DNA of 64,000 nt from assembly GCA_000702085.1 (NCBI GenBank), contig KL370861.1, positions 560,911-624,910 on the forward strand, written 5' to 3'. Positions within the stretch are counted from its first letter, which is position 1, and each line of letters begins with the position of its first letter. Below are positions 5,401 through 21,770 of this stretch, one piece after another. Below the pieces are notes generated by a model, which ran no database searches, was not told the DNA's origin, and saw nothing but the letters and a program-made list of their open reading frames with translations. The position numbers and the translations under genes were made by a program. Origin of the DNA: Lachnospiraceae bacterium P6A3 (GTDB lineage: Bacteria > Bacillota > Clostridia > Lachnospirales > Lachnospiraceae).

Positions 5401-5444
5401 TAAATAGATTTATTATGTATAAATATACGATTGGTGAGAGGCAG

Positions 5445-6398
5445 ATGAATTCATCCGAAAAAAGTAAAAATTCCGGTTCCGGAAACGGCTGGCTTATCGC
5501 GTGTATTGCCTTTCTGTTAATTGCAGTCGCAGGCTGCGTCTGGATAGTCGTTCACTTTAAGAATTCATCGGCTGCCAACACTACGTATGAAACTCTTGCG
5601 GAAAGTAACAACACGTCGGAACAAAGCGAGAATAATACATCCGGTGAAGACTCATCCGATCTCGGACAGAGTGATGCTTCCGAACTATCCGGCACTCAGG
5701 GCGGCTTATCCCCTGAAGGACTTGCCCAGGCATCCGGCGAAGACGGATCTGAAGAAACGGAAGAGATTACGGATGCAAGAAATTTGGAAGCAGTGGATGA
5801 AGCCCCCGATAAAGGAATCGACTGGGATAAGCTTCACGATACCAATCCCGATATCTATGCATGGATAAATGTTCCCGGTACATCCGTTGATTATCCCGTA
5901 CTTCAGCATGCGAGTGACAACGAATATTACCTGATGCACAATCTCGACGGCTCTTACGGCTATCCCGGAGTTATTTATACCGAGAATTACAACAGTAAGG
6001 ACTTTACGGATCCCAACACTGTCCTCTACGGACACAACATGGATAACACCACCATGTTCTCGACACTACATAAATTCAGTGATCCCGAGATGGTTGAGAA
6101 TCCGCATTACATATACATCTATACCGAAGACGGAAGGACTCTGGTGTATGAGATATTTGCCGCATATGAATATCCTTCGATACACCTTCTCATCAACTTC
6201 GATGTGAAAAACGAATATATCTACGAACAGTATTTGAGAAATATCCAGAACATTGACATCACCGGAACGGGCGTTGCCAATATCCGCCATGACATTGAAC
6301 CGACTGTTAATGACAGGATAATAACTCTTTCTACTTGCACTACGGATCATGACGCTTCGGAAAGATTTCTGGTTGTGGGTGTTTTGCTCAATCCGTAA
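5445..6398 (+). CDS. srtB: class B sortase (cysteine transpeptidase)
   Basis: 317 residues: one N-terminal membrane helix (about 15-37), a long Ser/Glu/Asp-rich spacer (about 41-122) and a sortase domain. The catalytic residues are visible: His197 in LYGHNMD, Cys298 in TLSTCTT and Arg307 in SERFLVVGVL. The TLSTC motif and insertions typify class B. Sortases cleave a C-terminal sorting signal and attach the protein to peptidoglycan. The start chosen is ATG 5445, preceded by GAGAGG; an in-frame ATG at 5415 lacks a ribosome binding site. The ~80-residue acidic spacer is unusually long. A likely substrate with an APKTG motif is encoded two genes downstream. Confidence 0.93.
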   Translation: MNSSEKSKNSGSGNGWLIACIAFLLIAVAGCVWIVVHFKNSSAANTTYETLAESNNTSEQSENNTSGEDSSDLGQSDASELSGTQGGLSPEGLAQASGEDGSEETEEITDARNLEAVDEAPDKGIDWDKLHDTNPDIYAWINVPGTSVDYPVLQHASDNEYYLMHNLDGSYGYPGVIYTENYNSKDFTDPNTVLYGHNMDNTTMFSTLHKFSDPEMVENPHYIYIYTEDGRTLVYEIFAAYEYPSIHLLINFDVKNEYIYEQYLRNIQNIDITGTGVANIRHDIEPTVNDRIITLSTCTTDHDASERFLVVGVLLNP

Positions 6399-6412: not shown

Positions 6413-7513
6413 TTGATAGAAGATAAGATAATAACAGAAAAGAAAAAGATAAGCATCACGGCCAAACTGATCACCACTCTGGTAATGATATTGCTTGTGA
6501 TTGTCGGAATCTTCGTTGTACTCCGCACCGTCGGAAAAAGCAACCTGTATGAGCTCAGTTCGGGTCTGGACGGAATTGTATCGGATTTAGGCGATGTGGT
6601 ATTGCCGGAAGAAAACGCTCAGTTGCCCGAAGGACATATTCTGTACGACGGAAAAGAATACGCACCCAATTCCGACCTTGTATGCATATTGGTGATGGGA
6701 ATAGATACCGAGACTGTCACCGAAATAGGCGGACAGAGCTGGGACTTGGATGAGGCTTCGGCAAATAATGGCGGTCAGGCAGATGCACTTTTCCTTCTTT
6801 TGCTTAATCCTCATAACGAGAAAATCTCGATTGTGAGTATAAACAGAAATTCCATGGCTGATGTGGATGTGTGGGATGCTTCGGGAACTTACAGAGGGAT
6901 TCTTACTCAGCAGATAGCTCTCCAGCACGGATACGGGACGGATCAGGTCGCGTGTGCAGAGCATCAGGTTAAAGCTGTATCAAGGCTGATGCATAATATA
7001 CCGATCCACGCATATGCTGCCATAAGTATGGATGCAATCCCGGAATTAAACGATGCTGTCGGCGGGGTTACTGTAGAAGTCCTGGAGACAATTGTTTATC
7101 CGGAATATGATATGGATCTTCATCAGGGTGAGACCGTTACACTCATGGGAGATAAAGCATATTGGTATGTAAGGCTCAGAGATGAGGATTTGTTTGACTC
7201 CAATTCCATGAGACTTGAGAGACAGAAACAGTATCTGGTTTCTTTTGCTGATAAAGCCAGAGAAACGGCAGGCGGAGATATTTCCGTTGCGATTGATCTG
7301 TTCAATATAATGCAGAAATACATGATAACGGATCTTAATGTAAGCAGCTTTACTTACCTTGCATCCGAAACAATGGATTACGAATTCAGTGCGGATAATA
7401 TGTATTCCGTTGAAGGCGAGACCATACAGGGGGAGAGGTTCGAAGAGTACTACGTAGACGATGATGCACTTCAGGCTCTTATAATAAAACTCTTTTATGA
7501 ACCTGTTAAATAA
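6413..7513 (+). CDS. LytR-CpsA-Psr (LCP) family cell-envelope protein
   Basis: 366 residues. A cytoplasmic basic N-terminus and one membrane helix (about 16-38) are followed by an extracellular LCP domain (about 90-300) with VCILVMGID, ADALFLLLLNP, ISIVSINRNS and YAAISMDAIPELNDAVGGVTVEV. LCP enzymes transfer glycopolymers from lipid carriers to peptidoglycan. The start is TTG 6413, with GGAG at 6400-6403 nine bases upstream. It lies 14 bases after the sortase gene in the same operon. Its placement before the polysaccharide locus suggests that it attaches that polymer. The usual 'RDS' arginine motif reads RNS here, so the activity should be judged with care. Confidence 0.9.
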   Translation: MIEDKIITEKKKISITAKLITTLVMILLVIVGIFVVLRTVGKSNLYELSSGLDGIVSDLGDVVLPEENAQLPEGHILYDGKEYAPNSDLVCILVMGIDTETVTEIGGQSWDLDEASANNGGQADALFLLLLNPHNEKISIVSINRNSMADVDVWDASGTYRGILTQQIALQHGYGTDQVACAEHQVKAVSRLMHNIPIHAYAAISMDAIPELNDAVGGVTVEVLETIVYPEYDMDLHQGETVTLMGDKAYWYVRLRDEDLFDSNSMRLERQKQYLVSFADKARETAGGDISVAIDLFNIMQKYMITDLNVSSFTYLASETMDYEFSADNMYSVEGETIQGERFEEYYVDDDALQALIIKLFYEPVK

Positions 7514-7587: not shown

Positions 7588-8277
7588 ATGAAAAAGAAGG
7601 TACTGGCTCTTATTTCGGCAGCAGCTCTTACTTTGCTCTGCTCCATGACTGTTCGTGCTGACAGCCCTACCGTAGGGAATGCTCAGCCTCCCGTTGGCAC
7701 ACAGACTGCCATCACAACGGTTAACAACACTGCATCTCCCGAACAGTATGCAGTTATCACCGCAACATCAGAAGGATTTAAAGTAACAGCCGTATCACAG
7801 ACTACTTGTGATTCTGCAGTTGTAGCTGCTCAGAATCTTGTTCTTAGAGATGTTGCTTCTCTCGGCCTTTTCCTCGGAGATGCCAATCTTGTTTCCGCTG
7901 CAACAACTCAGGGATCCATCGTTACCGCTACCGTTCTTTCTACCGTAGATGTTGATCCTACAACCGCTACTAAAGATGCAACAGGAATGTACAATGTTGT
8001 TCTCAGCAACGCAATGATCGCTGCAGGAGACACTGTTGCAATTCTTCACTATAATGAATCAACCAAGTCTTGGGAACTTATCAAGCCCGTTGCGGTTGCA
8101 CAGGGTTCTGTTGCTTTCCAGACTTCGTCTCTTTCTCCCATTACCATAGTTAAGGTTAATACAACCGCAGCAGCACAGGCTCCTAAGACCGGAGTTATGG
8201 TTTACGGTGCTATGACCGTAATCCTTGCAGGACTTATGGGCGCGGTAATCTGCTACAAAAAATCTCGCAGAGCATAA
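7588..8277 (+). CDS. small cell-wall-anchored protein with APKTG sorting signal
   Basis: 229 residues. Signal peptide 1-24 (KKK, hydrophobic core, VRA-DS cleavage), an Ala/Thr/Val-rich extracellular domain (about 25-190), then a cell-wall sorting signal: APKTG at 198-202, hydrophobic helix 205-222 and the basic tail KKSRRA. APKTG departs from LPXTG, but class B and clostridial sortases accept variant first residues, and a class B sortase is encoded two genes upstream. The ribosome binding site is AGGAGG. The mid-domain pattern 'AAGDTVAILHYNESTKSWELIKPVAV' resembles short immunoglobulin-like surface modules. The function is unknown; a small abundant wall protein is plausible. Confidence 0.85.
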   Translation: MKKKVLALISAAALTLLCSMTVRADSPTVGNAQPPVGTQTAITTVNNTASPEQYAVITATSEGFKVTAVSQTTCDSAVVAAQNLVLRDVASLGLFLGDANLVSAATTQGSIVTATVLSTVDVDPTTATKDATGMYNVVLSNAMIAAGDTVAILHYNESTKSWELIKPVAVAQGSVAFQTSSLSPITIVKVNTTAAAQAPKTGVMVYGAMTVILAGLMGAVICYKKSRRA

Positions 8278-8329: not shown

Positions 8330-9484
8330 ATGGCAAATATTCTGTTTGTTACAACTATCAGCGGATTTCTTCCGCAATTTGAAATGGGAGACGTAAGATG
8401 CGTTTCCGAACTCGGATGCAAAGTATTTTATGCGTCCAATTTTGACAACCCCGTTTATGTATTTGAAAAAGATGACCTTGTAAAACAAGGCATAAACCTG
8501 AATCAAATTTCCGTCAGGAAAAGCCCCTTAAGTATCAAAGACAATTTCCATGCCATAAAAACACTAAAGGCTTTTATCGACGATAATGACATTGACATTA
8601 TTCATTGCCACAACCCCATGGGCGGTGTTACCGCACGCGTGGCAGGACGATTTAGCAAAAAGCATCCGTATGTCATATATACTGCACACGGATTTCATTT
8701 TTATAAAGGTGCACCTATCAGGAACTGGATTCTTTATTACACAGCAGAAAAGTTTCTGGCGAGATGGACGGACCACATAATAACGATCAACGCAGAGGAC
8801 TATAAAAGAGCACTTCGGTTTAAGGTAAGAGATGAAGACGGAGTTACAAGGATCGGCGGAGTAGGATGCGACGGTAACAGATTTAAACCTATGCCGGAAA
8901 TCCGTACTTTAAAAAGGAAAGAGATAGGAATCCCTGAAGATGCTTTTCACATTGTGACCGCTGCGGAGATTAACGATAACAAGAATCAAAAAATTATCAT
9001 TGAAGCACTTGCCAGAATAAATGATAAGGATGTGTATTACAGCATTTGCGGCAAGGGACCAAATGAAAAATATTTAAAAGATCTGATCACAAAATACGAA
9101 CTTGAAGACAGGGTAAGACTGCTCGGATACAGGACCGATATGGAAGAAATCCTTCAGACTGCGGATGTCTTTGCATTTCCGTCAAAGAGAGAAGGATTTG
9201 GAATTGCGGCTGTCGAAGCCCTTTTATGTGGAGTTCCTCTTATAGCATCCGATACGAGAGGTGCTCATGAATATGCCAAGGATGGTATCAATTCGATAGT
9301 ATGTAAGAGCGGCAAAGCGGAAGAGTATGCTTTCGCCATAAGAAAGCTCAAAAGCAATCCGGAGCTTTTAAAGAGATTTTCAGGTAATTGCAGGGATTCG
9401 GCATTTGATTTTACTGGCGGTGAAGTCAGGAAGATAATGCGTCCCGTGTACGAAAGAGCCATACAGCACTGCGAAAAAAGGTAA
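8330..9484 (+). CDS. glycosyltransferase family 4 (GT-B fold)
   Basis: 384 residues. The N-terminal Rossmann half (MANILFVTTISGFLPQF) includes HCHNPMGGVTARVAGR and YTAHGFHFYKGAP, typical of GT4 enzymes of the EpsD/CapM type. The C-terminal half carries the nucleotide-sugar binding pattern with the EX7E motif, E-GFGIAAV-E in FPSKREGFGIAAVEALLCGVPLIASD. These retaining enzymes add a sugar to a lipid-linked acceptor on the cytoplasmic face of the membrane. It is the first gene of the polysaccharide locus, and its base composition is like the host's. Donor and acceptor cannot be told from sequence. Confidence 0.93.
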   Translation: MANILFVTTISGFLPQFEMGDVRCVSELGCKVFYASNFDNPVYVFEKDDLVKQGINLNQISVRKSPLSIKDNFHAIKTLKAFIDDNDIDIIHCHNPMGGVTARVAGRFSKKHPYVIYTAHGFHFYKGAPIRNWILYYTAEKFLARWTDHIITINAEDYKRALRFKVRDEDGVTRIGGVGCDGNRFKPMPEIRTLKRKEIGIPEDAFHIVTAAEINDNKNQKIIIEALARINDKDVYYSICGKGPNEKYLKDLITKYELEDRVRLLGYRTDMEEILQTADVFAFPSKREGFGIAAVEALLCGVPLIASDTRGAHEYAKDGINSIVCKSGKAEEYAFAIRKLKSNPELLKRFSGNCRDSAFDFTGGEVRKIMRPVYERAIQHCEKR

Positions 9485-9514: not shown

Positions 9515-10444
9515 GTGAAGAAACCCTTGATCTCAGTCATAATGGGAGTTTACAACCAATGGGATATCGATGCTCTTAAAAGAGCTGTGAATTCCGTCCT
9601 GTCTCAGACAATATCCGATCTGGAATTTATTATCTGGGATGACGGTTCCGAAAAGTGGGTCTCGGATGAACTCAGGAAATTATGCGTTCTTGATAAGAGA
9701 ATTATTTTAGCGGGACGTAATGAGAACAGAGGACTTGCTTTTTCACTTAACGAATGTATCAAACTTGCAAAAGGCAAATACATAGCAAGAATGGATGCGG
9801 ATGACGAATGTCTTCCCGAACGCTTTGCAAGACAGGTTGAATTTCTTGAAGAGCACAAAGAATATTCATGGTGCGGTACCTGCGCAGAGCTTTTTGATGA
9901 GAAAGGCATTTGGGGATACAGGAATATGCCCGAAGTTCCGGACGTGAAAGATTATTACAGGTTTTCCCCATATATTCACCCTTCCGTAATGTTCAGAAGA
10001 GATGTGTTTGATAAAGATACCGGGTATCTTGAAGAGGAAGAAACCTATAAGTGTGAGGATTATGAGATATTCATGAGACTTATGCAAAAGGGGCTTAAAG
10101 GATATAACATTCAGGAACCGTTATTCAGATATCACGAAACATATGCTTCGTATAGATTGAGAAAACCCTGCTATCGCATCAATGAAGCGAAAGTAAGATT
10201 GAACAATTATCGTAAGATGGGAATCTTGTTCCCGTTTGGCTGGATGTACGTACTCAGACCTTTAGTCGGATGTCTGATTCCCGGATACATGATCGGAATT
10301 ATCAAGAGGACTGAAGGAAGATTTGCAAGAGCAGAGAGGGAGAATATTAATGACCGGTTCGATACCGAAGAAAAGATTATCGAAGTACCGGAGTTACTTG
10401 TCGCAGATTCCCTCGTTCGCCCGAAGTATGGACGTTTGTCTTGA
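9515..10444 (+). CDS. glycosyltransferase family 2 (GT-A fold)
   Basis: 309 residues starting at GTG 9515 after a strong GGGGAGGAG. The GT-A core shows ISVIMGVYNQWD, FIIWDDGSE, an acidic MDADDE metal-binding motif and ARQVEFLEEH. The C-terminal part has weakly hydrophobic stretches (about 235-258) that may associate with the membrane. GT2 enzymes are inverting transferases that extend the polysaccharide chain. The end overlaps the next gene by 17 or 95 bases, depending on which start is used, suggesting coupled translation. Confidence 0.92.
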   Translation: MKKPLISVIMGVYNQWDIDALKRAVNSVLSQTISDLEFIIWDDGSEKWVSDELRKLCVLDKRIILAGRNENRGLAFSLNECIKLAKGKYIARMDADDECLPERFARQVEFLEEHKEYSWCGTCAELFDEKGIWGYRNMPEVPDVKDYYRFSPYIHPSVMFRRDVFDKDTGYLEEEETYKCEDYEIFMRLMQKGLKGYNIQEPLFRYHETYASYRLRKPCYRINEAKVRLNNYRKMGILFPFGWMYVLRPLVGCLIPGYMIGIIKRTEGRFARAERENINDRFDTEEKIIEVPELLVADSLVRPKYGRLS

Positions 10445-11738
10445 AAAAGCGCGTGATGCAGGTTCCGAACTTCTTCCGGAAGATGAAGCATTCATTTACG
10501 TATTTGCACCGGTAATTTGCTCCTATGTGATATATGTGCTTCAGGATGCTAAGAGGCGCGGGATTAAGAGACTTGTGTTTCTTGCCAGGGACGGATATCT
10601 GCCATACAAAGCAGCTTTAAACCTTGGTCTTTCTATAGCACCTGAGATTGAATTGAGTATCATTTCCGTTTCGAGATTTGCGCTTCGAAGTGCCGAATAT
10701 GCACTTATTGAAGAAGAATGTCTCGATACATTATGCCTGGGAGCACTTGACCTGACATTTGAAAGAATGCTTAAGAGGGCATCTCTTACGGATGAAGAGA
10801 TTGCTACTATAGCAGAGAAATGTGGGATGACCGGCAGGATAAATGAGCCGCTTACTCATAAAGAAATCGCCGGCATAAAAGCCAAACTCAGAATTATTCC
10901 GGACTTCTTCGAAGCAGTAAAAAGACATGCATCCGATAAACTTGATGTCGTCCGGGAATATCTTGCTCAGGAAGGACTTACTAAGGAACGTTTTGAAGAT
11001 ACATGTATAGTTGACAGCGGATGGATAGGCACTGTTCAGCAAAGCATAAACAGACTTATATCGGGGGGAGAAAAGAATGGGTTCGAAGGTTATTATTTCG
11101 GACTGTATTCTATTCCCGATAATGCACCGTCTGATGCATATCGGAGTTATTACATCTCTCCCGGATCGGGATTGTCAAATCTCCTGAGAAAAGTACGATT
11201 CAGCATATGCCTTTTTGAAAGCGTTTGTTCATCTCCAGAGTCAATGACTTACGGATATGAACATTTGAATGGGAAAGTTATTCCGTTAACAAGAGAAGCA
11301 GGAAATCCCAATGCCGCATTTATAAGAAGGGCAGAAAGCTACATAGATGAGTTTTCTAAGAAGCTTGCTTCCGAAAATGCAGGATTGGTCGATATTAACG
11401 CTATGCGCAGGATGTGCAAGAAGCTGTTAAAACTATGCATGAGTGATCCTACAAAGGAAGAGAGCGTTGCATTGGGAAAACTTTCGTTTTCCGATGATGT
11501 TGTGGATGACAATATCAGGAAGCTGGCGGCTGACTGGGGAAGAATTGAGCTTAAAGAGAATTCGTTTTTCAGGAAAATGCTCGTCAAAGCAGCTATTAAG
11601 AACGGAATGGTTCCTGTAAGCGGCTGGCCGGAAGGAAGTATTGCCGCTTCTTCATCCGGTTTGAAAAAAAGAATTGGTCTGCTGTCGGAAAGATGGTCCA
11701 AAGCAGTGACAGAGATCAGAAAGACGGTAATTAAGTGA
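10350..11738 (+). CDS. polysaccharide-locus protein with 'FLxRDG ... DSGWxG' domain, function unknown
   Basis: About 462 residues if started at ATG 10350, which has AGAGGGAG upstream; ATG 10428 is an alternative with a shorter overlap. Two motifs stand out: LVFLARDGYLPYKAA and CIVDSGWIGTVQQS. The same pair (LLFLSRDGD and CIDIGWAGSG) occurs in the C-terminal half of the 668-residue protein at 25331-27337, which also carries an N-terminal HAD phosphatase-like domain. The present protein resembles that C-terminal half alone, without the HAD domain. Such COG5610-like proteins occur in capsule and O-antigen loci. The conserved Asp and Gly-Trp suggest a catalytic or nucleotide-sugar site, but the reaction is not known to me. 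It overlaps the permease gene by four bases (GTGA). Confidence 0.7.
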   Translation: MTGSIPKKRLSKYRSYLSQIPSFARSMDVCLEKARDAGSELLPEDEAFIYVFAPVICSYVIYVLQDAKRRGIKRLVFLARDGYLPYKAALNLGLSIAPEIELSIISVSRFALRSAEYALIEEECLDTLCLGALDLTFERMLKRASLTDEEIATIAEKCGMTGRINEPLTHKEIAGIKAKLRIIPDFFEAVKRHASDKLDVVREYLAQEGLTKERFEDTCIVDSGWIGTVQQSINRLISGGEKNGFEGYYFGLYSIPDNAPSDAYRSYYISPGSGLSNLLRKVRFSICLFESVCSSPESMTYGYEHLNGKVIPLTREAGNPNAAFIRRAESYIDEFSKKLASENAGLVDINAMRRMCKKLLKLCMSDPTKEESVALGKLSFSDDVVDDNIRKLAADWGRIELKENSFFRKMLVKAAIKNGMVPVSGWPEGSIAASSSGLKKRIGLLSERWSKAVTEIRKTVIK

Positions 11739-12511
11739 AGGGCAGATTCAGCGACATACTTCAATATGTCTTCGTAATAAGAGAATTAACATCGAGAGAG
11801 ATCAAGCGTAAATATGCCAGAAGTTCCCTTGGAATTATCTGGAGCGTACTTAATCCTCTTTTGATGATGGTGGTAATGTCACTGATTTTCTCAACGATGT
11901 TTAAAAAATCGATTGAGAATTTTCCGATTTATTATCTGACAGGTCAGACGGTTTGGGGATTGTTCAACGGGGCTACTAACTCGGCAATGACTGCTTTAGT
12001 GGATAATAAGACACTTCTTATTAAGGCCAAGCTGCCAAAACATACATTTATCCTTTCAAGAGTATATACGGCACTGGTAAATTTCGGATATACATGCATT
12101 GCATATATACTGATGCTTTTGGTTTTCAGGATTAAGTTTACTTTGACTATGCTTCTGTTTCCAGTGGGTATTTTTTTTGCACTTGTTTTCTCAATCGGAC
12201 TCGGATATTTACTTGCTACTGAATACGTATTCTTCGATGACATTAAATATCTTTATGGGATTTTTCTGACATTGCTTATGTATATGTCGGCTATATTTTA
12301 TCCTGTGGAGAATCTGCCTGAGGTGGTTCAAAAAGTTGTAAATATGAATCCTGTTTATCTGGTGATCTTGTTTTCCAGAGAATGTGTGATGTACGGACAT
12401 GTGCCTGAAGCCTGGGTTTGGGCGAGGCTTTCTGCATGGAGTGTAGCAAGTGTAGTTCTTGGAATGATTATATTCAGGGTTCAGGAAAATAAAATAATGC
12501 AGACCATATAA
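11735..12511 (+). CDS. ABC-2 type polysaccharide exporter permease (Wzm/TagG-like)
   Basis: 258 residues, the usual length, with about six membrane helices. The family N-terminal pattern ELTSREIKRKYARSSLGIIWSVLNPLL is present, together with the later MYMSAIFYPVENLPE. Two copies would form the membrane channel that exports lipid-linked polysaccharide with a Wzt/TagH ATPase. The start is GTG 11735 within GTGA, overlapping the stop of the previous gene. The next gene, its ATPase partner, starts on the last base of this one (TAATG), so the pair is tightly coupled. Confidence 0.94.
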   Translation: MKGRFSDILQYVFVIRELTSREIKRKYARSSLGIIWSVLNPLLMMVVMSLIFSTMFKKSIENFPIYYLTGQTVWGLFNGATNSAMTALVDNKTLLIKAKLPKHTFILSRVYTALVNFGYTCIAYILMLLVFRIKFTLTMLLFPVGIFFALVFSIGLGYLLATEYVFFDDIKYLYGIFLTLLMYMSAIFYPVENLPEVVQKVVNMNPVYLVILFSRECVMYGHVPEAWVWARLSAWSVASVVLGMIIFRVQENKIMQTI

Positions 12512-14409
12512 TGAAGAGTGCAAAGACAAACAACAGAATAGGAAGCATTCTCAGAATTGCCGTAATGATGATATTTACGGCTGTTTGCGTTGTGCTCGTT
12601 CCTTCGTTGGATGCATATGCTGCCGAGGCATATGTTACTTTCGGTTCCGAATCCTACACTCCTAAAGCAGGTAAAGAATTTAAAGTAGGTGTTTATGTAA
12701 AGTGTATGGATGGCGTCGGAGCCAGTTCCCTTACGATAGGATATGACCCCAACTGTCTCGAATATGTGGGTGGGGGATCGGGTTATGATCTTGAAAACGG
12801 TCTGGTTTTCATAGTTGATGATATCGGAAACGGTGCCAATTCAAAGAAGTTCATGCTTGTTTTCAAGGCTAAAACAGAATCTTTCTCTGAGATTCATGCT
12901 GTTGCAAATTTCGTATATACATACGATTTTCCTGATGTGATCATGGAAGACGGAACTGTTGTACCTTGTGCAGATCCCGTGGAGTGTACAATTACCGGAA
13001 GTGCAATGGCTCCCGTCATGATCCAGGGTACAGCTCCCAAGCCTGAAGAAAAACCTGAGGAGAAACCGGAAGAGACAGTGAACCAACAGGAAGAAACCGA
13101 AGATGTTGAAGAACAGACTGAGGAACCTGAAGTGATTGCTGAAGTACCTGTTGAGGAACAGCAGATTGAAGAACAGATTCCCGAAGAACAGGTTCCCGTT
13201 GTAATTGATGCACCTGTTATATCTGAGACGGTTGAAGAAAACACTGAAGAACCGTCAGTACCGGATACTATTGTTGAAGCTAATCCTCTGTATTTTTACG
13301 ACGGTAATAATGATAATGAGCCTGAAAAGCAGGTGGATGAATCAGCTATCCTTATGCTGATACTGGTTGGTTCTGCTATAGCTCTGCTTTTGCTGTTATG
13401 GATGTCCAGAGATGAGTTCAAAGCACGTAAGAAAGAAGCTAAGCTCTATGTGGATGCTTTGGAAGATCCAAACTATGAAGATGAAAACACTGATGAATTT
13501 ATCATAGAGCTTCCCGATGAAAACAAAACTCAGGATGACGGACTGTATTCTGAAGACGATATTATTACCGATATCGGAGAAGATACCACTACATTCAGTG
13601 ATGATGATCTTCAGATCATTAACATGGATGAGAGGCTTGCTGTTGATGACAGAGAAAGAGTTATCTCGGTTAAAGACGTCACTATGGAATTCCATCTTTC
13701 GACTTATAATCCTTCCGGACTAAAAGATTATTTGATCCAGATGGTAAAGCGGAATATCTCTTATCGAAGATTATATGCACTACATCATGTAAGCTTTGAT
13801 GTCTATAAAGGAGAAGTTGTCGGAATAATCGGAACCAACGGATCCGGAAAGAGTACTCTTCTAAAGATTGTATCCGGTGCACTCAGACCTACTTCCGGAA
13901 GTGTTACCGTTGATAGGAAGAAAGTGCAGTTGCTTACTCTCGGAACCGGTTTTGATATGGAGCTTACTGCAAGAGAGAATGTGTATCTCAACGGTTCCAT
14001 AATCGGTTATTCTAGAGACTTCCTTGATAAGCACTATGACGATATCGTAAAGTTTGCCGAACTCGAAGACTTTATGGAAGAAAAGGTTAAGAACTTTTCT
14101 TCAGGTATGGTCTCCAGACTTGGATTTGCCATCGCCACAGCCGGTGATGCAGCAGAAATTCTCATTCTTGATGAAGTTCTTTCCGTAGGTGATGAATTCT
14201 TCAAGAAGAAAAGCCTCGCTCGTATTAGGGAAATGATTCATGGTGGAAGTACTGTTCTTATAGTCAGCCATGGAATAGGTACTATTCTCGATAACTGCAC
14301 AAAATGTGTGTGGATTGAAAAGGGAGAACTTCGAATGGTTGGTAATCCACAAGAAGTTTGTGATGCATATCAGCACATGGAAAATTCAGAAAGTGCTGTT
14401 GGAGCTTAA
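12511..14409 (+). CDS. chimeric exporter ATPase: extracellular cohesin-like domain + TM helix + Wzt/TagH ABC domain
   Basis: 632 residues in one uninterrupted frame. Signal peptide or signal anchor 1-38; extracytoplasmic beta domain about 39-165 with a cohesin-like pattern (GKEFKVGVYVKCMDGVGASS, then LTIGYDPNCLEYVGG); an acidic Pro/Glu/Gln linker 170-275; transmembrane helix 279-297 followed by basic KARKKEAK; an acidic cytoplasmic linker to about 380; ABC ATPase 383-625. The ATPase has Walker A GTNGSGKST (441-449), signature FSSGM (529-533) typical of Wzt/TagH, Walker B EILILDE (549-555) and switch His 587. The usual cytoplasmic Wzt C-terminal sugar-binding domain is missing. It partners with the upstream permease. 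No ribosome binding site supports a separate start for the ATPase half, so I take the fusion as real. Confidence 0.9.
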   Translation: MKSAKTNNRIGSILRIAVMMIFTAVCVVLVPSLDAYAAEAYVTFGSESYTPKAGKEFKVGVYVKCMDGVGASSLTIGYDPNCLEYVGGGSGYDLENGLVFIVDDIGNGANSKKFMLVFKAKTESFSEIHAVANFVYTYDFPDVIMEDGTVVPCADPVECTITGSAMAPVMIQGTAPKPEEKPEEKPEETVNQQEETEDVEEQTEEPEVIAEVPVEEQQIEEQIPEEQVPVVIDAPVISETVEENTEEPSVPDTIVEANPLYFYDGNNDNEPEKQVDESAILMLILVGSAIALLLLLWMSRDEFKARKKEAKLYVDALEDPNYEDENTDEFIIELPDENKTQDDGLYSEDDIITDIGEDTTTFSDDDLQIINMDERLAVDDRERVISVKDVTMEFHLSTYNPSGLKDYLIQMVKRNISYRRLYALHHVSFDVYKGEVVGIIGTNGSGKSTLLKIVSGALRPTSGSVTVDRKKVQLLTLGTGFDMELTARENVYLNGSIIGYSRDFLDKHYDDIVKFAELEDFMEEKVKNFSSGMVSRLGFAIATAGDAAEILILDEVLSVGDEFFKKKSLARIREMIHGGSTVLIVSHGIGTILDNCTKCVWIEKGELRMVGNPQEVCDAYQHMENSESAVGA

Positions 14410-14444: not shown

Positions 14445-15467
14445 ATGAATCAGGTAAGAATAGCGTTAAATATCTGCACATATAAACGAGAGCAAAACCT
14501 TAAAGCTATTCTTGAGGTTTTGAAAAAATCCGAATTCTTTAATTCATCTAATTTTCATTATTTTAACAAGTTACATATTTTTGTCGTAGATAACGCATCT
14601 GAACTAACATTAGAAGATTTTCCTAATCTTCATTTATTTTATAATCCAAATACCGGCGGCTCGGGTGGCTTCCAAAGGGGAATAGAAGAAATTAGAAAAA
14701 TAAATGATTTTACTCATGTCATATTTATGGATGATGATGTGAAATTTGAAATCAGTTCTTTCTATATTCTCTATGATTTTTTAGAAAATGTTGATGCAGG
14801 AAATGCAGATAGACCCATAGCAGGAAGGATGTTTGATATAGATAATCCAAACATTCAGTGGACCGCTGCAGAAAGATGGAATTCCGGAGTTATTCAGCAT
14901 GTTGAATTTCTTAGAGATATATCAAACCCAGATAATCCATATACACCCGGAAAGGTAATATATGATACAGATGCGGATTATGGTGGTTTTTGGTTTTGCT
15001 GTTATCCGTACCAGTTTGTATTGAAAAATGATATTATTCCTTTTTTTCTTCATTGTGATGATGTTGAATATGGCCTTAGATGTACTAGGAGACCGTTAAT
15101 AATCGAGGGGGTCCATGTTTGGCATAAAACTTGGGAAAAGAAAATAAATTCTGCTTTTGTTTATTATGATTATAGAAATACGCTGTTTGTTAATTCTCTA
15201 TACAACCATTTACTGAAAATAAAAGATCTGGAATCTGAATTTTTTCAGAAAATCAGTGAGTATCATATATGCAAGGAATATCTTAACGAATATATGATAA
15301 TAATAGCGATGCGTGATTTCTTGCGTGGAAAAAAATGGTTATATCGGGTAGATGCATGTAAATACCATAACAAAATATCTAATGTTAAAACTAATAAGGT
15401 AAAAAATGCAATCACTTGGAGATGCGTAATGCTTAGAATGAAATTGAAATATTTTTATTTGAAATAA
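14445..15467 (+). CDS. glycosyltransferase family 2, galactofuranosyltransferase (GlfT2)-like
   Basis: 340 residues. GT-A core with IALNICTYKREQNLKAIL, FVVDNAS, NTGGSGGFQRGI and the DDD triad VIFMDDDVKF, followed by GFWFCCYP, HCDDVEYGLR and HVWHKTWEKK. The combination of a 'GGSGGF' acceptor region, the DDD metal site and a later 'HCDDxEY' and 'W.K' region is characteristic of GlfT2-type galactofuranosyltransferases, which use UDP-galactofuranose. The short C-terminal domain is much smaller than in mycobacterial GlfT2. This is the first gene of the AT-rich block, 35 bases after the exporter ATPase, probably in the same operon. The sugar assignment is inferred. Confidence 0.85.
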   Translation: MNQVRIALNICTYKREQNLKAILEVLKKSEFFNSSNFHYFNKLHIFVVDNASELTLEDFPNLHLFYNPNTGGSGGFQRGIEEIRKINDFTHVIFMDDDVKFEISSFYILYDFLENVDAGNADRPIAGRMFDIDNPNIQWTAAERWNSGVIQHVEFLRDISNPDNPYTPGKVIYDTDADYGGFWFCCYPYQFVLKNDIIPFFLHCDDVEYGLRCTRRPLIIEGVHVWHKTWEKKINSAFVYYDYRNTLFVNSLYNHLLKIKDLESEFFQKISEYHICKEYLNEYMIIIAMRDFLRGKKWLYRVDACKYHNKISNVKTNKVKNAITWRCVMLRMKLKYFYLK

Positions 15468-15517
15468 GCCCACTTTTGCTGCAGTGAATATAACATCGTG
15501 ATAAAAACGGAGAGAAA

Positions 15518-16273
15518 ATGTATATAGACATAGAAAAAAAGGAAGTCAGTGAGTTAAAGGAATATTTCAACTTTACAGGAAATTTAACTATTGGAAATAA
15601 GTTTACTACATGTATTGAAGCTCCATGTTGTTTTAATGGAAATTTGACATTAAATTCGAAAAACGTAGGAGCTTTTTCTTATTTTTCTTCAAATATATTG
15701 ATCAATAAATCTGAAACAATAGGAAGATTTTGTGTAATTAATCGAAATGTGGAGATAGGTTTGGCTAATAGACCTATTGAATCTTTAAGTGTTAGTCCGA
15801 TTTTTGATAGAAGTGATTTGCCTTGGGCTGAAAAATTTCACTCATTAAGTAAGGAATGTAGAGCTGAAAATCATAAAAAACAAAGAATTAAGGAAATGAG
15901 AAAAAAGGAAACAGTAACAATTGGAAATGATGTGTGGATTGGAGCTGGAGCACATATTTTATTGGGTGCAAATATCGAAGATGGAGCTGTGATAGGTGCA
16001 GGAGCAGTTGTTACCAAAGATATTCCGGCATATTCGATTGCAGTTGGTGTTCCTGCGAGAGTGATAAAAACTCGTTTTCCTGAAGAAATTATAAGTGAAC
16101 TGAAAGAAATTAAGTGGTGGGAATATGGCCCTGACATTTTGGCTGATCTTGATATTACAGATATAGAAAATTGCATTAAGATGATAAAAAAACGAATTGA
16201 TGAAGGTTTTCCTAAGTACAGTACCACAAAAGTGAACTTTGATAACAATGGATTCGTTATAGAGGATAGATAA
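15518..16273 (+). CDS. hexapeptide-repeat acyltransferase (CatB-like left-handed beta helix)
   Basis: 251 residues. The C-terminal half carries hexapeptide repeats ([20 protein letters not shown], then [20 protein letters not shown]) followed by [14 protein letters not shown], a pattern of trimeric O- or N-acetyltransferases. The N-terminal third ([20 protein letters not shown], then [17 protein letters not shown]) also looks helical-repeat in nature. Such enzymes acetylate sugars of capsules and O-antigens using acetyl-CoA. The ribosome binding site is ACGGAGAG. The stop codon TAA abuts the ATG of the next gene. Confidence 0.88.
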
Positions 16274-18754
16274 ATGGTTTTTAGTGATATTGAAGAGGCT
16301 AATATAAGAGTTAGACAAGCAGAAAAAGATTGTGAAAGAGCAATAAAAGATAAAGAGATTTTAAGAAATGAAGCGAAAGAAGAACGAGCTCGTACAAGAG
16401 CTTTACTTGAAAAAGTAAAAAAAGAAACCGGAAAAGATTATAAAGAATTTTATGATAGTTTTTCAATTAATAAAATAAGTGATGAAAAAAATATATTGGA
16501 ATATCCTGACAGATTAAAGGATGGTTTGGATTTTTCCGAATTCTGTGGCAAAACTAATTCTATTACCGTTATTGTGTGCGTGCATAATGCATTGAATGAT
16601 GTGGTAGAATGTTTACTTTCATTAACAAATCATTATACTTTTCCATTCAAGTTGATTTTAGTTGATGATGGAAGTGATGCAGATACAAAGAATTATTTAA
16701 CTGCTTTTTCTAAGATAATTGGGTGTGAATTGATTCGAAACGATACATCTAAAGGGTATACTGTTTCGGCGAATATTGGATTAAGTAAATCTAAAACAGA
16801 GTTTTCTGTATTATTAAATAGTGACACTATTGTGACCGAAGGCTGGTTAGAGAAAATGCTGAACTGTATGCTCTTGGATGAGAAAATTGGGATTGTCTCA
16901 CCTTTGTCCAATGCAGCAAGCTGGCAAAGTGTTCCTTATAGATACAATACATCCTCTGGCGATTGGATGATTAATAGTTTAGATTCTGATAAAACGTATG
17001 ATCTTATGTCTTTGACAATTTCAGACCTTTCCATGCATTTATATCCCTCTGTTGAGGTTTTGAATGGTTTTTGCATGATGATAAGAAATTCACTGATTGA
17101 CGAAATAGGTCTGTTGGATGAGAAAAACTTCCCTAGAGGGTATGGCGAAGAAGTTGACTTTTGCTTGAGGGCAAAAAAAGCCGGCTATATTTTAAAAGTA
17201 GTTGATGATGCATATATTTTTCACGAAAAATCAAAAAGCTTCACACATGAGACAAGAAAAATTCTGGGTAAAGAATCAAAAGATGTTTTGATGAAAAAAT
17301 ATGGTGCTGAATCATATGGAAAATTAAATGCATTAATGGAGAAAAATGGTGAACTTAATTCTGTTAGAGATAATATCCGTATAAATAAAGATTCTTATAG
17401 CTCTATGCCAATAATGAAAATGAAGATTGCGTTCTTGTTAACCACCAGAGGAGGAAATGGAGGGGCTAATTCTGTGGTTCAAGAAGTGCTTGGAATGAGA
17501 AAACTTGGTGTTCAAGCATATATTATTAATAGTTCAAATTACTCCGATTCATTTAATTCTTTTTATCCGGAATTATCTAAATACGTATTATATTTTGATA
17601 AAAACGACGAAGAATCGTTATATAGATTGGCTGTAGATTTTGATTACATTATTGCGACAGTTTTTACTACGGTTAAGTTATTACATAAAATATCTTTAGT
17701 CTTTCCCGATATTTATCTTGGATATTATATACAGGATTATGAACCTTATTTTTTCGAAAAAACAGATGAGTTATATAAAGAGGCCGAGGAGTCTTATTCT
17801 CTGATTCCTAATATGTGTCGTTTTGCAAAGACACGATGGATTTCAGATATGGTCAAGGAAAAACATAAACAAAATGTTTATTTAGTTAAGCCTAGTGTTG
17901 ATATAAGCATTTATAACCCATATATCATTGAAAAAAAAGAAATATCTGATTCGATTGTCGTTTCTGCGATGATTAGACCTAAAACCCCCAGGAGGAACGC
18001 ATTAGGGACTCTAAAATTATTAAAAAAAATAAAAGAAAAATATGGAGATTTAGTAGAAATAAATATATTCGGATGCAGTATATCTGACTTGGATCCCTAT
18101 AAAGAAGTTCTTGATTATGAATACGTAAATCATGGGATTTTGACAAGGATAGAAGTTGCAAATGTGTTATTGCATTCTAATATGTTTGTTGATATGTCTA
18201 CATATCAAGCGTTTGGGAGAACGACTTTGGAGGCTATGGCGCTTGGCTGCATTTCGGTTATCCCTCAAAAAGGAGGAGCTTGTTTGTATGCAAAGGATAA
18301 TGTGAATTCAATTGTTGTAGATACTGGCAACATAGAAGAAACATACTTAAGAATAATAGAAATACTGTCTGATAAAAACAAATATTATTCTATGCAAAAA
18401 GAAGCTCTTATTACTGCAAGGGGTTATGATGTTTTAGGCGCGTCAATTTCTGAATTGATTGTTCTTAACAATCATCTTGAAAATGAACTGCATAATCCGC
18501 AGGTGCTGATTAACCGATTGATGAACCAATTGAAAGAAAGCAAATATGAAAACACGATTTTACGAAATCAAAATGAGGATTTAATTAAGAAACAATCTAA
18601 ATGTGATGCATATATAGATTACCAAAATGAAATAATAGAGAATTTGCGGAATGAAGAGAGCATTTATAAAAAATGCTATGAGGATATATCCAATGCTACT
18701 TTTTGGAAAATATCAAGTCCTGTAAGACATATCCTGGATTATATAAAAAAATAA
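16274..18754 (+). CDS. two-domain glycosyltransferase (GT2 + GT4) with coiled-coil ends
   Basis: 826 residues. The N-terminal ~65 residues are Glu/Lys/Arg-rich and probably coiled coil. A GT2 domain begins near residue 97 (ITVIVCVHNALNDV, LVDDGSD, LLNSDTIV, a GYGEEVDFCLRAKKAGY acceptor-site region). A GT4 domain starts near 383 (MKIAFLLTTRGGNGGANSVV) and contains GRTTLEAMALGCISVIPQ. The last ~80 residues form another coiled coil ending in TFWKISSPVRHILDYIKK, a tail seen in rhamnan-type polymerising transferases. Two active sites suggest synthesis of a disaccharide repeat. The N-terminal ATG directly follows the preceding stop codon. Confidence 0.87.
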   Translation: MVFSDIEEANIRVRQAEKDCERAIKDKEILRNEAKEERARTRALLEKVKKETGKDYKEFYDSFSINKISDEKNILEYPDRLKDGLDFSEFCGKTNSITVIVCVHNALNDVVECLLSLTNHYTFPFKLILVDDGSDADTKNYLTAFSKIIGCELIRNDTSKGYTVSANIGLSKSKTEFSVLLNSDTIVTEGWLEKMLNCMLLDEKIGIVSPLSNAASWQSVPYRYNTSSGDWMINSLDSDKTYDLMSLTISDLSMHLYPSVEVLNGFCMMIRNSLIDEIGLLDEKNFPRGYGEEVDFCLRAKKAGYILKVVDDAYIFHEKSKSFTHETRKILGKESKDVLMKKYGAESYGKLNALMEKNGELNSVRDNIRINKDSYSSMPIMKMKIAFLLTTRGGNGGANSVVQEVLGMRKLGVQAYIINSSNYSDSFNSFYPELSKYVLYFDKNDEESLYRLAVDFDYIIATVFTTVKLLHKISLVFPDIYLGYYIQDYEPYFFEKTDELYKEAEESYSLIPNMCRFAKTRWISDMVKEKHKQNVYLVKPSVDISIYNPYIIEKKEISDSIVVSAMIRPKTPRRNALGTLKLLKKIKEKYGDLVEINIFGCSISDLDPYKEVLDYEYVNHGILTRIEVANVLLHSNMFVDMSTYQAFGRTTLEAMALGCISVIPQKGGACLYAKDNVNSIVVDTGNIEETYLRIIEILSDKNKYYSMQKEALITARGYDVLGASISELIVLNNHLENELHNPQVLINRLMNQLKESKYENTILRNQNEDLIKKQSKCDAYIDYQNEIIENLRNEESIYKKCYEDISNATFWKISSPVRHILDYIKK

Positions 18755-18775
18755 AACAATTTACATGAGCGAGAG

Positions 18776-19684
18776 ATGATGCAAAAAAAAATACTATTAA
18801 TATCACCGTGTTCACAAGATAGCCACCAATATAACGGAGATTATTATTTTTCACTGTCTTTAATGCATGCTTTCATAGATAAAGGGTATGATGTTGATTT
18901 TAGATTTGTGGAAAGATGGTATGATCAATACGATGGAGATATTGTATTTGTTATAAGAGGCCCTTTTAAGTATGTGTGTAATCCTAGCAAGAAAAACTAC
19001 ATGTGGATAATCTCGCATCCTTTCGACGTGGAATTGGATGAATACAAGCAATATCAATGGATTTTTGTTGCTTCCTCACAATGGGTTGAGTCATTAAGGA
19101 AAATTTTTATCAAATATGGTATTTCGTGTGGCTTGTCCTTGGCATATCCGTGCTCGGATAAAAAACTTTTTTTCAGTAAAGCAAATTATAATTGTAATAA
19201 TCGATTACTATTTGTTGGTATTAATCATACTGAGGGTAGAAAAGTCATATCTCAGTTGTTTCCGTTTAAATTTGATTTGGATATATATGGCGGTGGATGG
19301 GATAAAAGTTATGCGTGCCTTTCTTGCAAAGGAGATGGCATTGAGAATGCAGAATTGAAAACGTATTACAATATAACCGGTATTGTTTTAAATGATACCA
19401 GAAAAGAAATGCTTGATTGCGGATTTGTTACAAATCGTCCATTTGATGTTTTTATGTCAGGTGGCTTTGTTCTTTCTGAAAAATGTAATGCTTTATATGA
19501 AATATTTGATGATTCTGTTGCTTTATATGATGGAACAAAACAGGATCTTGAAGAAAAAATAAACTATTATCTTTACAATAAAAAAATAAGATATGAAATG
19601 ATTGAATCCGGACAGAAAATCGTTCTAGAAAAACATACTTTTGAAAATAGAGTTGCATTTTTTGCCCAATTTTTTGATGATTAG
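18776..19684 (+). CDS. CgeB-like glycosyltransferase (GT-B type)
   Basis: 302 residues. The C-terminal part has the pattern LNDTRKEMLDCGFVTNRPFD followed by VFMSGGFVLSEKCNALYEIF and a late KHTFENRVAFF, which match the CgeB/spore-maturation-type glycosyltransferase domain (Glyco_trans_1_2 like). The N-terminal half is a degenerate Rossmann domain. Despite the CgeB name, these proteins decorate surface glycans in many non-spore-formers. It is compactly placed after the 826-residue transferase, 21 bases apart. The sugar specificity is unknown. Confidence 0.82.
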   Translation: MMQKKILLISPCSQDSHQYNGDYYFSLSLMHAFIDKGYDVDFRFVERWYDQYDGDIVFVIRGPFKYVCNPSKKNYMWIISHPFDVELDEYKQYQWIFVASSQWVESLRKIFIKYGISCGLSLAYPCSDKKLFFSKANYNCNNRLLFVGINHTEGRKVISQLFPFKFDLDIYGGGWDKSYACLSCKGDGIENAELKTYYNITGIVLNDTRKEMLDCGFVTNRPFDVFMSGGFVLSEKCNALYEIFDDSVALYDGTKQDLEEKINYYLYNKKIRYEMIESGQKIVLEKHTFENRVAFFAQFFDD

Positions 19685-19693
19685 GTAAAGAGT

Positions 19694-21766
19694 ATGATTT
19701 TATCTATTATCCTTCCCGTGTATAATCCGGGTGCAGTTCTTGATGATTGTATAAATAGACTTGTGCAATCAATTGATGAAGAGAATAAACAAGAAATCGA
19801 AATTTTGATTATTGATGATGGATCAACAGACGGTTCTGTGGAAAATCTCGATGATTGTATTAGCGATTGTTTCCCTCAATTACGTATTATTCACATCTCA
19901 CATATGGGCGTCGCAAAAGCAAGAAACTATGGACTGGCGAATGCTCTGGGTGAGTATGTTCAGTTTATTGACGTTGACGATGTCTATGTTGGATCAGCTG
20001 TTTTTCATAAGCTATTTCCATTAATGAAAAACCATGAGTATAGTGTTTTCGCCGGTTCGTTCTCAGATGAAAATAATTTCAAATATACAACTTCTTTTTC
20101 CGGAGATTTAGATGGGTATACTTTTAAGAATGATGGGATAATTTTATACAGAGATTATCAGTTCGATTATGGCTTCCATCGTTTCATTTTCGAACGTGAT
20201 TTTTTGATTGACAATAAAATTCTATTTCCTGATTTAATTAGATTTCAAGATCCCCCTTTTTTGGTAAACGCATTATATTGTGCGGAAAAGTTTTATGCTA
20301 TAAAAGATGTGATTTATTGCTATAGAGTTCACGATGATATTAAGTGGGACGAAAAGAAAATTGCGGATTGCATTAGCGGAATAGCTCTCAATGTCGATTT
20401 TTCATTAAAGAAGCTTTTGCCACGTCTATATTGGTATTCCTTAAGCAGGTTAGTAAGGCTACTATATGATCATTTGATTCAACCTGAATGGCAAACTAAT
20501 AAATTGATAATTCCGTTAGTGAAGCAATTTGGGATTGCAATTAATAATGGTTTTAATGACAGGCTTTTAAATGACGAAGATTTTTGTAAACTTAGTCAGA
20601 TTATTCATTTATATTCTCTAAATAGAAACTCGGATATTACCATCGTGATTCCTGTATACAACGTTGGTAAATATTTGAGACAGTGTTTGGAAAGCATAGT
20701 TTTCCAAACGGATTCTTTGTGTAGAACTATTATTGTTAATGACGGATCTACAGATAATTCTCAGGAAATATGCGAGGAGTTTTTGCTTCATTTCCCGTGT
20801 ATGTTTGAATTGATAAATACAGATAACCACGGACTTGGAGCTGCAAGGAATATTGGTTTAAAAAAGGTGAACACTAAGTATGTGTCTTTTTTGGACAGCG
20901 ATGATTGGTTGGATGCATATTTTATAAAAAATGTATCGGAAAATCTAGAGAAATATAATCCGGATTTATTGTTTACCCTGCCAAAGTGCTATGACAATCA
21001 GAAACATACAGTTTATGAATGGATGGATCATGAAAACTACATTAGCACGTTTTGCTTGAATGAAAATGATTCTTCTATATTTACTGGCGATAAAGGTAAA
21101 CTCTATAAACTTGAAGTGAATGCAAACAGAAAGGTATACAGGGTTGAATTTCTTAATGAATTAAATTTTACTTTTCCTGAAGGGACTAAATGGGAGGATT
21201 TACGCCCTCATATTCAGTTGTGTCATTTTGCTGGTCGAATAGTTGGCATATCTAATACGGGCATGTATTATAGGACTAATTTGCCTAATCAAATCACTTC
21301 TCGCAGAGGTGCGGAAAGACTTGATTTTATAGATGTGGTTGAGGACTTCCTGTCATGTATTAATGATGACTATTCAAATAATGAAATATCAGAAATAATG
21401 TCTTTGATTATCAAGTATTCCCTTTGGATGATTGAAATGACAGATGTTGATTACATTTATGAGTTGATTGCAAAATTGCATTTGCTGTATTTAAACATTC
21501 CACAACATTATTATAAAGCATATTTATCTTCGGAAAATATCAAGATTGAAGACAAATCAATAGGCAAGGGATTTTTTTGTTTGATTACCGGACATCAGTA
21601 TATGAAATTGACAGATTATGATAAAAGGAATGGGCTATATAAATATTGGCTTTTAAATAATGGCAAAAGAAAGAATATAGTTGGCGGAGCTCTTCAATGT
21701 ATTAAAGATAGTGGGTTTAAGTATTTTCTTATTCATGCATATAAAAAAATAATATTTAAGGTATGA
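19694..21766 (+). CDS. tandem family 2 glycosyltransferase (two GT2 domains)
   Basis: 690 residues with two GT-A domains. The first starts at residue 2 (LSIILPVYNPGAVLDD, ILIIDDGSTDGS, FIDVDD); the second begins near 314 (ITIVIPVYNVGKYLRQCLES, TIIVNDGSTDNSQE, FLDSDDWLD). Both keep the DDGS/NDGS nucleotide site and an acidic metal motif (DVDD and DSDD), so both may be active. Tandem GT2 proteins often build alternating linkages in capsules. The remaining ~190 C-terminal residues are helical and unassigned. It starts 9 bases after the previous gene. Confidence 0.9.
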   Translation: MILSIILPVYNPGAVLDDCINRLVQSIDEENKQEIEILIIDDGSTDGSVENLDDCISDCFPQLRIIHISHMGVAKARNYGLANALGEYVQFIDVDDVYVGSAVFHKLFPLMKNHEYSVFAGSFSDENNFKYTTSFSGDLDGYTFKNDGIILYRDYQFDYGFHRFIFERDFLIDNKILFPDLIRFQDPPFLVNALYCAEKFYAIKDVIYCYRVHDDIKWDEKKIADCISGIALNVDFSLKKLLPRLYWYSLSRLVRLLYDHLIQPEWQTNKLIIPLVKQFGIAINNGFNDRLLNDEDFCKLSQIIHLYSLNRNSDITIVIPVYNVGKYLRQCLESIVFQTDSLCRTIIVNDGSTDNSQEICEEFLLHFPCMFELINTDNHGLGAARNIGLKKVNTKYVSFLDSDDWLDAYFIKNVSENLEKYNPDLLFTLPKCYDNQKHTVYEWMDHENYISTFCLNENDSSIFTGDKGKLYKLEVNANRKVYRVEFLNELNFTFPEGTKWEDLRPHIQLCHFAGRIVGISNTGMYYRTNLPNQITSRRGAERLDFIDVVEDFLSCINDDYSNNEISEIMSLIIKYSLWMIEMTDVDYIYELIAKLHLLYLNIPQHYYKAYLSSENIKIEDKSIGKGFFCLITGHQYMKLTDYDKRNGLYKYWLLNNGKRKNIVGGALQCIKDSGFKYFLIHAYKKIIFKV

Positions 21767-21770
21767 ATTT

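Follow-up and report, generated by a model that had tools for sequence, protein, structure and literature searches.

Once a Gram-positive bacterium has exported a glycan, the polymer must reach the enzymes that fix it to the cell wall, a transfer that is, to our knowledge, poorly understood. A gene of Lachnospiraceae bacterium P6A3 bears on this question. It lies in a 64,000-nucleotide stretch of contig KL370861.1 (positions 560,911 to 624,910 of the forward strand, hereafter the window), and it joins, in one reading frame, an ATP-binding cassette (ABC) ATPase of the TagH/Wzt type to an N-terminal domain predicted to lie outside the cell. What would such a domain do on the ATPase of an exporter? 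We propose, with a little better than even confidence, that the gene encodes a membrane-tethered type V exporter ATPase that positions, where the polymer leaves the transporter, a domain for docking or glycan binding and keeps export and attachment together.

Layout of the fused protein

The gene is a single uninterrupted frame of 632 codons, with its ATG at 12511 and its stop codon at 14407–14409 on the forward strand (Table 1). A signal peptide, which is a fast-evolving segment in comparison with congeners, precedes a cohesin-like domain, an acidic linker whose identity is 30–58% across four congeners, a transmembrane helix (best 19-residue hydropathy window beginning at residue 280, mean 2.8), a second acidic linker and the ATPase. 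The latter carries Walker A (GTNGSGKST, residue 441), the signature (FSSGM, 529), Walker B (ILILDE, 550) and the switch His (VSH, 585). The reading of the frame and of its motifs confirms the layout given by an earlier sequence-only reading of this DNA, and the helix supports, as a prediction, the claim made there of a membrane-anchored exporter ATPase. The outer domain is thus predicted to be outside and the ATPase in the cytoplasm.

The outer domain and its predicted cohesin fold

The sequence-only reading had described the outer domain as a cohesin-like beta domain and suggested structure prediction of residues 39–165 as a check. The AlphaFold2 model, built from a six-row alignment, has a mean predicted local distance difference test score (pLDDT) of 75.2 and a predicted template modelling score (pTM) of 0.73, with model residues 115–127 poor. 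All 47 Foldseek matches of this model to the PDB at E ≤ 0.001 were chains of cohesin, cohesin-dockerin or scaffoldin entries (4dh2, E 8.5e-6; top query TM-score, TMq, 0.73 among the matches listed). By sequence, Pfam Cohesin (PF00963) matched the fused protein with E 1.5e-4 and 22.5 bits, below the cut-off of 24.1, and reached 24.7 bits, above it, on the window's domain in the whole-genome search. A phmmer search of PDB sequences with the single domain sequence gave no convincing cohesin (tryptophan synthase came first at E 0.11; the cohesin chain 5nrk, labelled Endoglucanase, had E 0.5), a profile of the domain gave four weak matches to scaffoldin or related sequences (E 6e-4 to 8e-3), and a PHROGs search returned no match. 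The outer domain has the cohesin fold according to this moderate-confidence model, in which the earlier description is borne out; the prediction concerns the window's domain alone.

The predicted fold is shared with cellulosomal and non-cellulosomal cohesins, from which the domain differs by its weak sequence similarity, by its position on an exporter ATPase and by the scarcity of dockerins: none was found above the Pfam cut-off in 12 of the 14 genomes with exporter-attached cohesins, some of which are incomplete drafts. The sequence-only reading had envisaged recruitment of dockerin-bearing proteins, and a classical cohesin bringing dockerin-bearing enzymes to the exporter would agree with the predicted fold and with the one dockerin match above cut-off in each of two genomes (G336 and G072; G numbers designate genomes and L numbers loci). 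However, because those 12 genomes have no dockerin above the cut-off, we regard such recruitment as very improbable and not supported as a general role. In the window's own genome there is one weak match, at 18.3 of 22.9 bits.

Distribution of the fusion among relatives

Among 397 genomes of the family, 27 encode an ATPase matching at E ≤ 1e-85 and are considered the closest exporters. Genes in the relatives' loci were called as longest open reading frames (at least 100 amino acids unless matched, with little overlap), so that genes may be hidden, for example in L212, and a contig or region ends near the gene in L078, L085, L087, L213, L214 and L216; L025, L026 and L027, which are on the same contigs as L012, L013 and L014, were counted once. 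The fusion of cohesin domain, helix and ATPase is found in ten of the 27 (G000, G001, G378, G333, G336, G281, G051, G155, G351 and G114), that is in at least ten of the 397 family genomes, with an ABC-2 permease adjoining in all ten. The search for the same domain order in Lachnospiraceae, which had also been suggested, was therefore positive. As the fusion recurs in separate genome assemblies of nine genera, we reject an assembly or sequencing error that joined two genes, an explanation for which no supporting point was found and to which we give practically no credence.

The other 17 closest exporters are organized differently. In one of them (G072) the cohesin domain, a second region and the helix are fused to the ABC-2 permease (L087, 1097–2941, minus strand) and the ATPase (334 amino acids) is a separate gene; attachment to the exporter is therefore what is kept, in this sole permease fusion, known from one contig of 3.9 kb. 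Four have an N-terminal hydrophobic anchor without cohesin (G133, G399, G232 and G055, at loci L200, L201, L202 and L211), that of G133 being borderline with a mean hydropathy of 1.8. Two have a C-terminal extension and no cohesin (G091 and G420), and ten are plain ATPases with C-terminal tails of 0–7 residues. Related cohesin-free ATPases at L203 (4303–5379, minus strand) and L204 (8457–9599, plus strand) have apparently cytosolic C-terminal extensions matching the Choline_bind_4 repeat, just above the cut-off in L203 (E 3.1e-6) and just below it in L204 (E 7.9e-6). A related ATPase of 343 amino acids from a Ruminococcaceae record, likewise without cohesin, carries a hydrophobic segment (mean 2.99) at its N-terminus (L029, 7704–8735, plus strand).

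Closer to the window, five others of the 31 genomes sampled in the genus, many of them incomplete, have the fusion, and a contig end cuts the gene in G010 and G022. The outer domain is 87–91% identical to the window's in three congeners and 71% in a fourth, with the permease upstream there too. The fusion is also present in two more diverged records, L028 and L030. Beyond the family, 28 other genomes in a class sample of 391 encode the ATPase at E ≤ 1e-70, and none shows a convincing fusion, judged by frame length except for G448, whose frame of fused length was rejected: its upstream part is Arg/Pro-rich, has no cohesin match and looks spurious. In G458, which belongs to another family, the genes follow the same order around a plain ATPase. 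Of 109 matches in plasmid records at E ≤ 1e-40, none reached 80% coverage of the query, and the five among the matches listed span the ATPase half only.

In the G013 copy of the fusion (L016, 577–2511, minus strand), the inner linker is interrupted in frame by a TAG, either a natural split or a draft-genome error. An internal start yielding a soluble ATPase, with the long protein minor or unused, could be argued from this codon and from the in-frame Met residues that precede the ATPase. Yet by eye no Shine-Dalgarno-like stretch lies ahead of the nearest Met, and the outer domain is conserved, hence we consider this explanation very unlikely.

The ATPase half compared with TagH and Wzt

Pfam ABC_tran matches the fused protein at E 3.9e-22, and the top PDB sequences for the ATPase include 6amx (E 1.1e-50), TarH 6jbh (1.8e-50) and TagH 7dd0 (1.3e-49), the closest relatives thus being TagH, TarH and Wzt. 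The 6amx entry is labelled ABC transporter in the PDB and we take it to be the Wzt of Aquifex aeolicus; the RfbE-labelled 9qfx matches at E 9.4e-35. TagH profiles rank first in NCBIfam, although their curated cut-offs are not reached (180 of 320 bits). The ATPase match stops 6–7 residues short of the stop codon, and NF010065, a long TagH profile of 549 positions, aligns at positions 8–236 only, which correspond to the ATPase; the C-terminal helix and outer SH3b-like domain of the Bacillus subtilis type are absent from the fused protein.

According to PMC11466899, whose text names the subunit TagG in places, TagH of the B. subtilis TagGH wall teichoic acid exporter is itself anchored in the membrane, its ATPase being followed by one helix with a linker and by an outer SH3b-like domain, all C-terminal, and this outer domain is proposed to meet wall polymers. 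The window's protein shares with it the ATPase family and the link through a single helix to an outer domain, whereas its own outer domain is N-terminal, after a signal peptide, and cohesin-like. It therefore repeats the principle of B. subtilis TagH with a different domain at the opposite end. This corrects the statement of the sequence-only reading that exporter ATPases of the Wzt/TagH type are normally soluble. Its statement that no described exporter has this layout holds in part: TagH already joins an ATPase through a helix to an outer domain (PMC11466899), and an N-terminal cohesin on an exporter ATPase is not reported among the literature matches listed.

Wzt of the Wzm-Wzt O-antigen exporters has a homologous ATPase and an ABC-2 permease partner, but many Wzt proteins carry a cytosolic C-terminal carbohydrate-binding domain, while the extra domain of the window's protein is outside. 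As had been noticed from the sequence, the cytoplasmic domain is missing: Pfam gave no Wzt_C match (PF14524) at E ≤ 0.1 on the fused protein, and a paralogous Wzt encoded in the same genome, L003, does carry Wzt_C (E 1.1e-40). It could be imagined that the outer domain replaces this selectivity from the other side of the membrane by recognising the exported glycan after its emergence. The absence of Wzt_C agrees with this possibility, as does the recognition of a modified glycan end by the carbohydrate-binding domain of Wzt, described in PMC9445017. Against it, the domain would act after translocation and therefore could not select substrates for entry, ten of the 27 related exporters have neither extra domain, and for TarGH the lipid diphosphate rather than the chain is argued to start recognition (PMC7078476). 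We find this replacement unlikely.

Selection and history

Purifying selection acts strongly on the outer domain. Its ratios of nonsynonymous to synonymous substitution rates (dN/dS), computed between the window and congeners with synonymous sites near saturation, are 0.023 and 0.030 (L013 and L014) and 0.088 (L042), L012 being saturated; those of the ATPase are 0.023–0.034 against all four congeners, and those of the linkers range from 0.11 to 0.68 where computable. On the ATPase tree, L201, which has the anchor only, is the sister of the fused L073 (support 99/95) with a helix similar by eye, a position compatible with loss of the domain and retention of the anchor. These data bear on the possibility that the anchor alone matters, by holding the ATPase at the membrane, and that the cohesin is a mere leftover of the protein from which the helix came. 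The four operons that retain an N-terminal hydrophobic segment without cohesin (L200 being borderline) and the sisterhood of L201 and L073 speak for it. However, the cohesin domain itself is constrained, and it also occurs on a permease (L087), which needs no anchor, so that we judge the anchor-only explanation improbable.

Degenerate and free-standing relatives

Three further proteins, from three genomes of the genus and longer versions of L021, L023 and L024, keep the cohesin domain and the helix with an ATPase half that lacks Walker A, signature, Walker B and switch His (L036, 9911–11740, in G018; L037, 9896–11695, in G019; L038, 9442–11103, in G002). TagH/Wzt profiles still match this half (best E 4.7e-14, 6.8e-7 and 6.2e-10, respectively), and it is still constrained, with proportions of nonsynonymous (pN) and synonymous (pS) differences of 0.28–0.33 and 0.68–0.70, the latter saturated. 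They form one clade (100/100) on a long branch of the ATPase tree. No ABC-2 permease was called within six genes of them; a LytR-CpsA-Psr (LCP) ligase gene adjoins L036, and the 4.5 kb around L037 and L038 revealed none. Neither this dead-ATPase form nor the permease fusion has a counterpart among the literature matches listed, from searches aimed at other forms.

A cohesin-like model (A3) matches 153 of the 397 family genomes at E ≤ 1e-4, mostly with one copy each; it was built partly from the diverged L018–L024, L028 and L030, whose own scores are therefore circular, whereas L073–L086, L207 and L215 are outside it. Among the best 100 of the matches listed, examined as loci, six are fused to an ATPase and 94, including L087, are not. 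Sorted by whether genes within 4.5 kb resemble a small set of reference genes (Pfam-checked in L077 and L108 only), these 94 lie near ClpC/McsB/RadA (32), an SH3 protein (27), LCP (19), CpsB/Wzz/CpsD (three) or other genes (13). L039 and L041, outside the 94, also adjoin CpsB/Wzz/CpsD-type genes, and Pfam identifies as neighbours of L077 CpsB_CapC (8.5e-81), Wzz, a ParA-type ATPase read as CpsD, LCP and a sortase. L108 (8861–10600) and similar loci encode a widespread, mostly single-copy protein with a cohesin, a helix and an acidic tail, next to ClpC/McsB/RadA or an SH3 protein and with no obvious glycan link.

Genomic context and the exported glycan

The permease adjoins or is fused to the exporter gene in 26 of the 27 operons, the L087 fusion included, and can be considered its cognate partner. 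The gene upstream of it, a homologue of which was called in 24 of the 27 operons, matches no Pfam family. Its model (pLDDT 64.6) had seven fold matches at E ≤ 0.001, exclusively to Bcs3, from the Haemophilus influenzae type b capsule, and to a Thermobacillus ribofuranosyltransferase (8a0m, 2.7e-7, and 7shg, 4.7e-6), and its sequence profile matched the same two proteins (4.7e-11 and 6.5e-6). The HAD phosphatase gene resembles Bcs3 by sequence, aligning to the phosphatase and to the beginning of the transferase part, and its homologue sits directly after the ATPase gene in many relatives. The domains of Bcs3 transfer ribofuranose-5-phosphate from phosphoribosyl pyrophosphate (PRPP) and then dephosphorylate it (PMC10299916), and in Klebsiella O4 and O7 such enzymes are known to belong to pathways with an ABC exporter (PMC11231755). 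Compared with these PRPP-dependent enzymes, the putative functions are split over separate genes in the window. Since these neighbouring genes resemble ribofuranosyltransferases, the exported glycan probably contains ribofuranose.

A homologue of the small secreted protein adjoins LCP in several relatives. Between the ATPase gene and conserved LigB/Memo-like and AMMECR1 genes, positions 14445–23150 hold glycosyltransferase-like genes and one hexapeptide transferase (15518–16273); the content of this block varies in the relatives L025–L027 and looks like a serotype cassette.

Table 1. Segments of the fused gene and neighbouring genes, in positions of the window
Feature	Residues	Positions	Strand	Basis
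Signal peptide	1–38	12511–12624	+	Read from the sequence: positively charged N-terminus, then a hydrophobic core, with AYAA at the end resembling a cleavage site
Extracellular cohesin-like domain (predicted)	39–165	12625–13005	+	Borderline Pfam Cohesin, AlphaFold2 model, Foldseek
Acidic Pro/Glu outer linker	166–277	13006–13341	+	Composition (32% Asp+Glu, 12% Pro)
Transmembrane helix	278–297	13342–13401	+	Hydropathy
Inner acidic cytoplasmic linker	298–379	13402–13647	+	Composition
TagH/Wzt-type ABC ATPase, intact motifs, with stop codon	380–632	13648–14409	+	Pfam ABC_tran; PDB sequence and NCBIfam matches
ABC-2 permease		11735–12511	+	Pfam ABC2_membrane, E 1.6e-15; one-base overlap with the start of the fused gene
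CriT-like ribofuranosyltransferase homologue, conserved upstream gene		10323–11738	+	Fold and profile matches
GT2 glycosyltransferase, conserved operon		9515–10444	+	Pfam
GT4-type glycosyltransferase, conserved operon		8330–9484	+	Pfam
Small secreted protein, PKTG-like C-terminal sorting signal (by eye)		7588–8277	+	Sequence; no Pfam family at E ≤ 0.01
LCP ligase		6413–7513	+	Pfam, E 2e-21
Sortase		5415–6398	+	Pfam, E 1.1e-15
HAD phosphatase with CriT-like region, Bcs3-like		25331–27337	+	phmmer to Bcs3, E 2.9e-18

A proposed docking module at the exit of the exporter

We propose that the fused protein would be the nucleotide-binding subunit of a type V exporter, similar to TagGH and Wzm-Wzt, for a lipid-linked surface glycan. 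As in the rest of the family, two ATPase copies would pair with two permease subunits, and each exporter would thus carry a pair of cohesin-like domains outside, each at the end of a long flexible tether. There, the outer domain would most likely act as a docking module at the exit. Its target may be the emerging glycan or the wall, or else a partner in assembly, for instance the LCP ligase whose gene is close by; docking would keep export and attachment in one place by proximity rather than by mechanical force. We favour a docking role because the domain attaches to either exporter subunit and because LCP and sortase genes belong to the window's cluster. The recurrence of the fusion with an adjoining permease, the selection on the outer domain, the free-standing versions beside capsule or LCP genes and the ribofuranosyltransferase-like neighbours also speak for the proposal. 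The acidic linkers, about 82 residues between ATPase and helix and about 112 between helix and cohesin, are compatible with a tether; flexible and lying on both sides of a single helix, they make direct transfer of force unlikely, and the direct coupling of export to surface attachment envisaged by the sequence-only reading is not supported.

Several observations weigh against this proposal. First, 16 of the 27 closest exporters have no cohesin domain, which is therefore not required for transport as such. Second, no other fused protein scanned exceeds the Pfam cohesin cut-off, the model having been made for the window's domain only; at E ≤ 0.1 or 0.001, a cohesin was named solely in L015 among the other intact fusions scanned, with 21.3 bits, below the cut-off. 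Third, the fused label changes ten times on the ATPase tree, at least four of these changes being forced by well-supported branches, and the cohesins of the fused, permease-fused and degenerate proteins do not group together to the exclusion of 26 free-standing ones (approximately unbiased test, p-AU 0.028, 130 columns); gain, loss and swapping of the domain thus recur. Fourth, 59 of the 94 non-fused loci adjoin ClpC/McsB/RadA or the SH3 protein and not glycan genes, so that the glycan link is confined to closer relatives and does not extend to the whole domain family.

A broader and more tentative idea, which we consider possible and would not yet rely upon, is that surface-glycan assembly in the family uses the membrane-tethered cohesin-like domain as a plug-in module. 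This module would be placed on the exporter ATPase or on the permease, or encoded as a separate protein next to Wzy-type capsule genes and LCP ligases, linking export to ligation outside, and in three genomes the motif-less ATPase would be a non-catalytic cytoplasmic scaffold of the same module.

One operon type offers a natural series, with the domain on the ATPase, on the permease, reduced to the anchor or absent, and dead-ATPase proteins occur elsewhere; the series provides ready comparisons for asking whether exporters bring their own external docking site. Taken together, our results suggest that the export of sugars can be physically linked to assembly at the surface.

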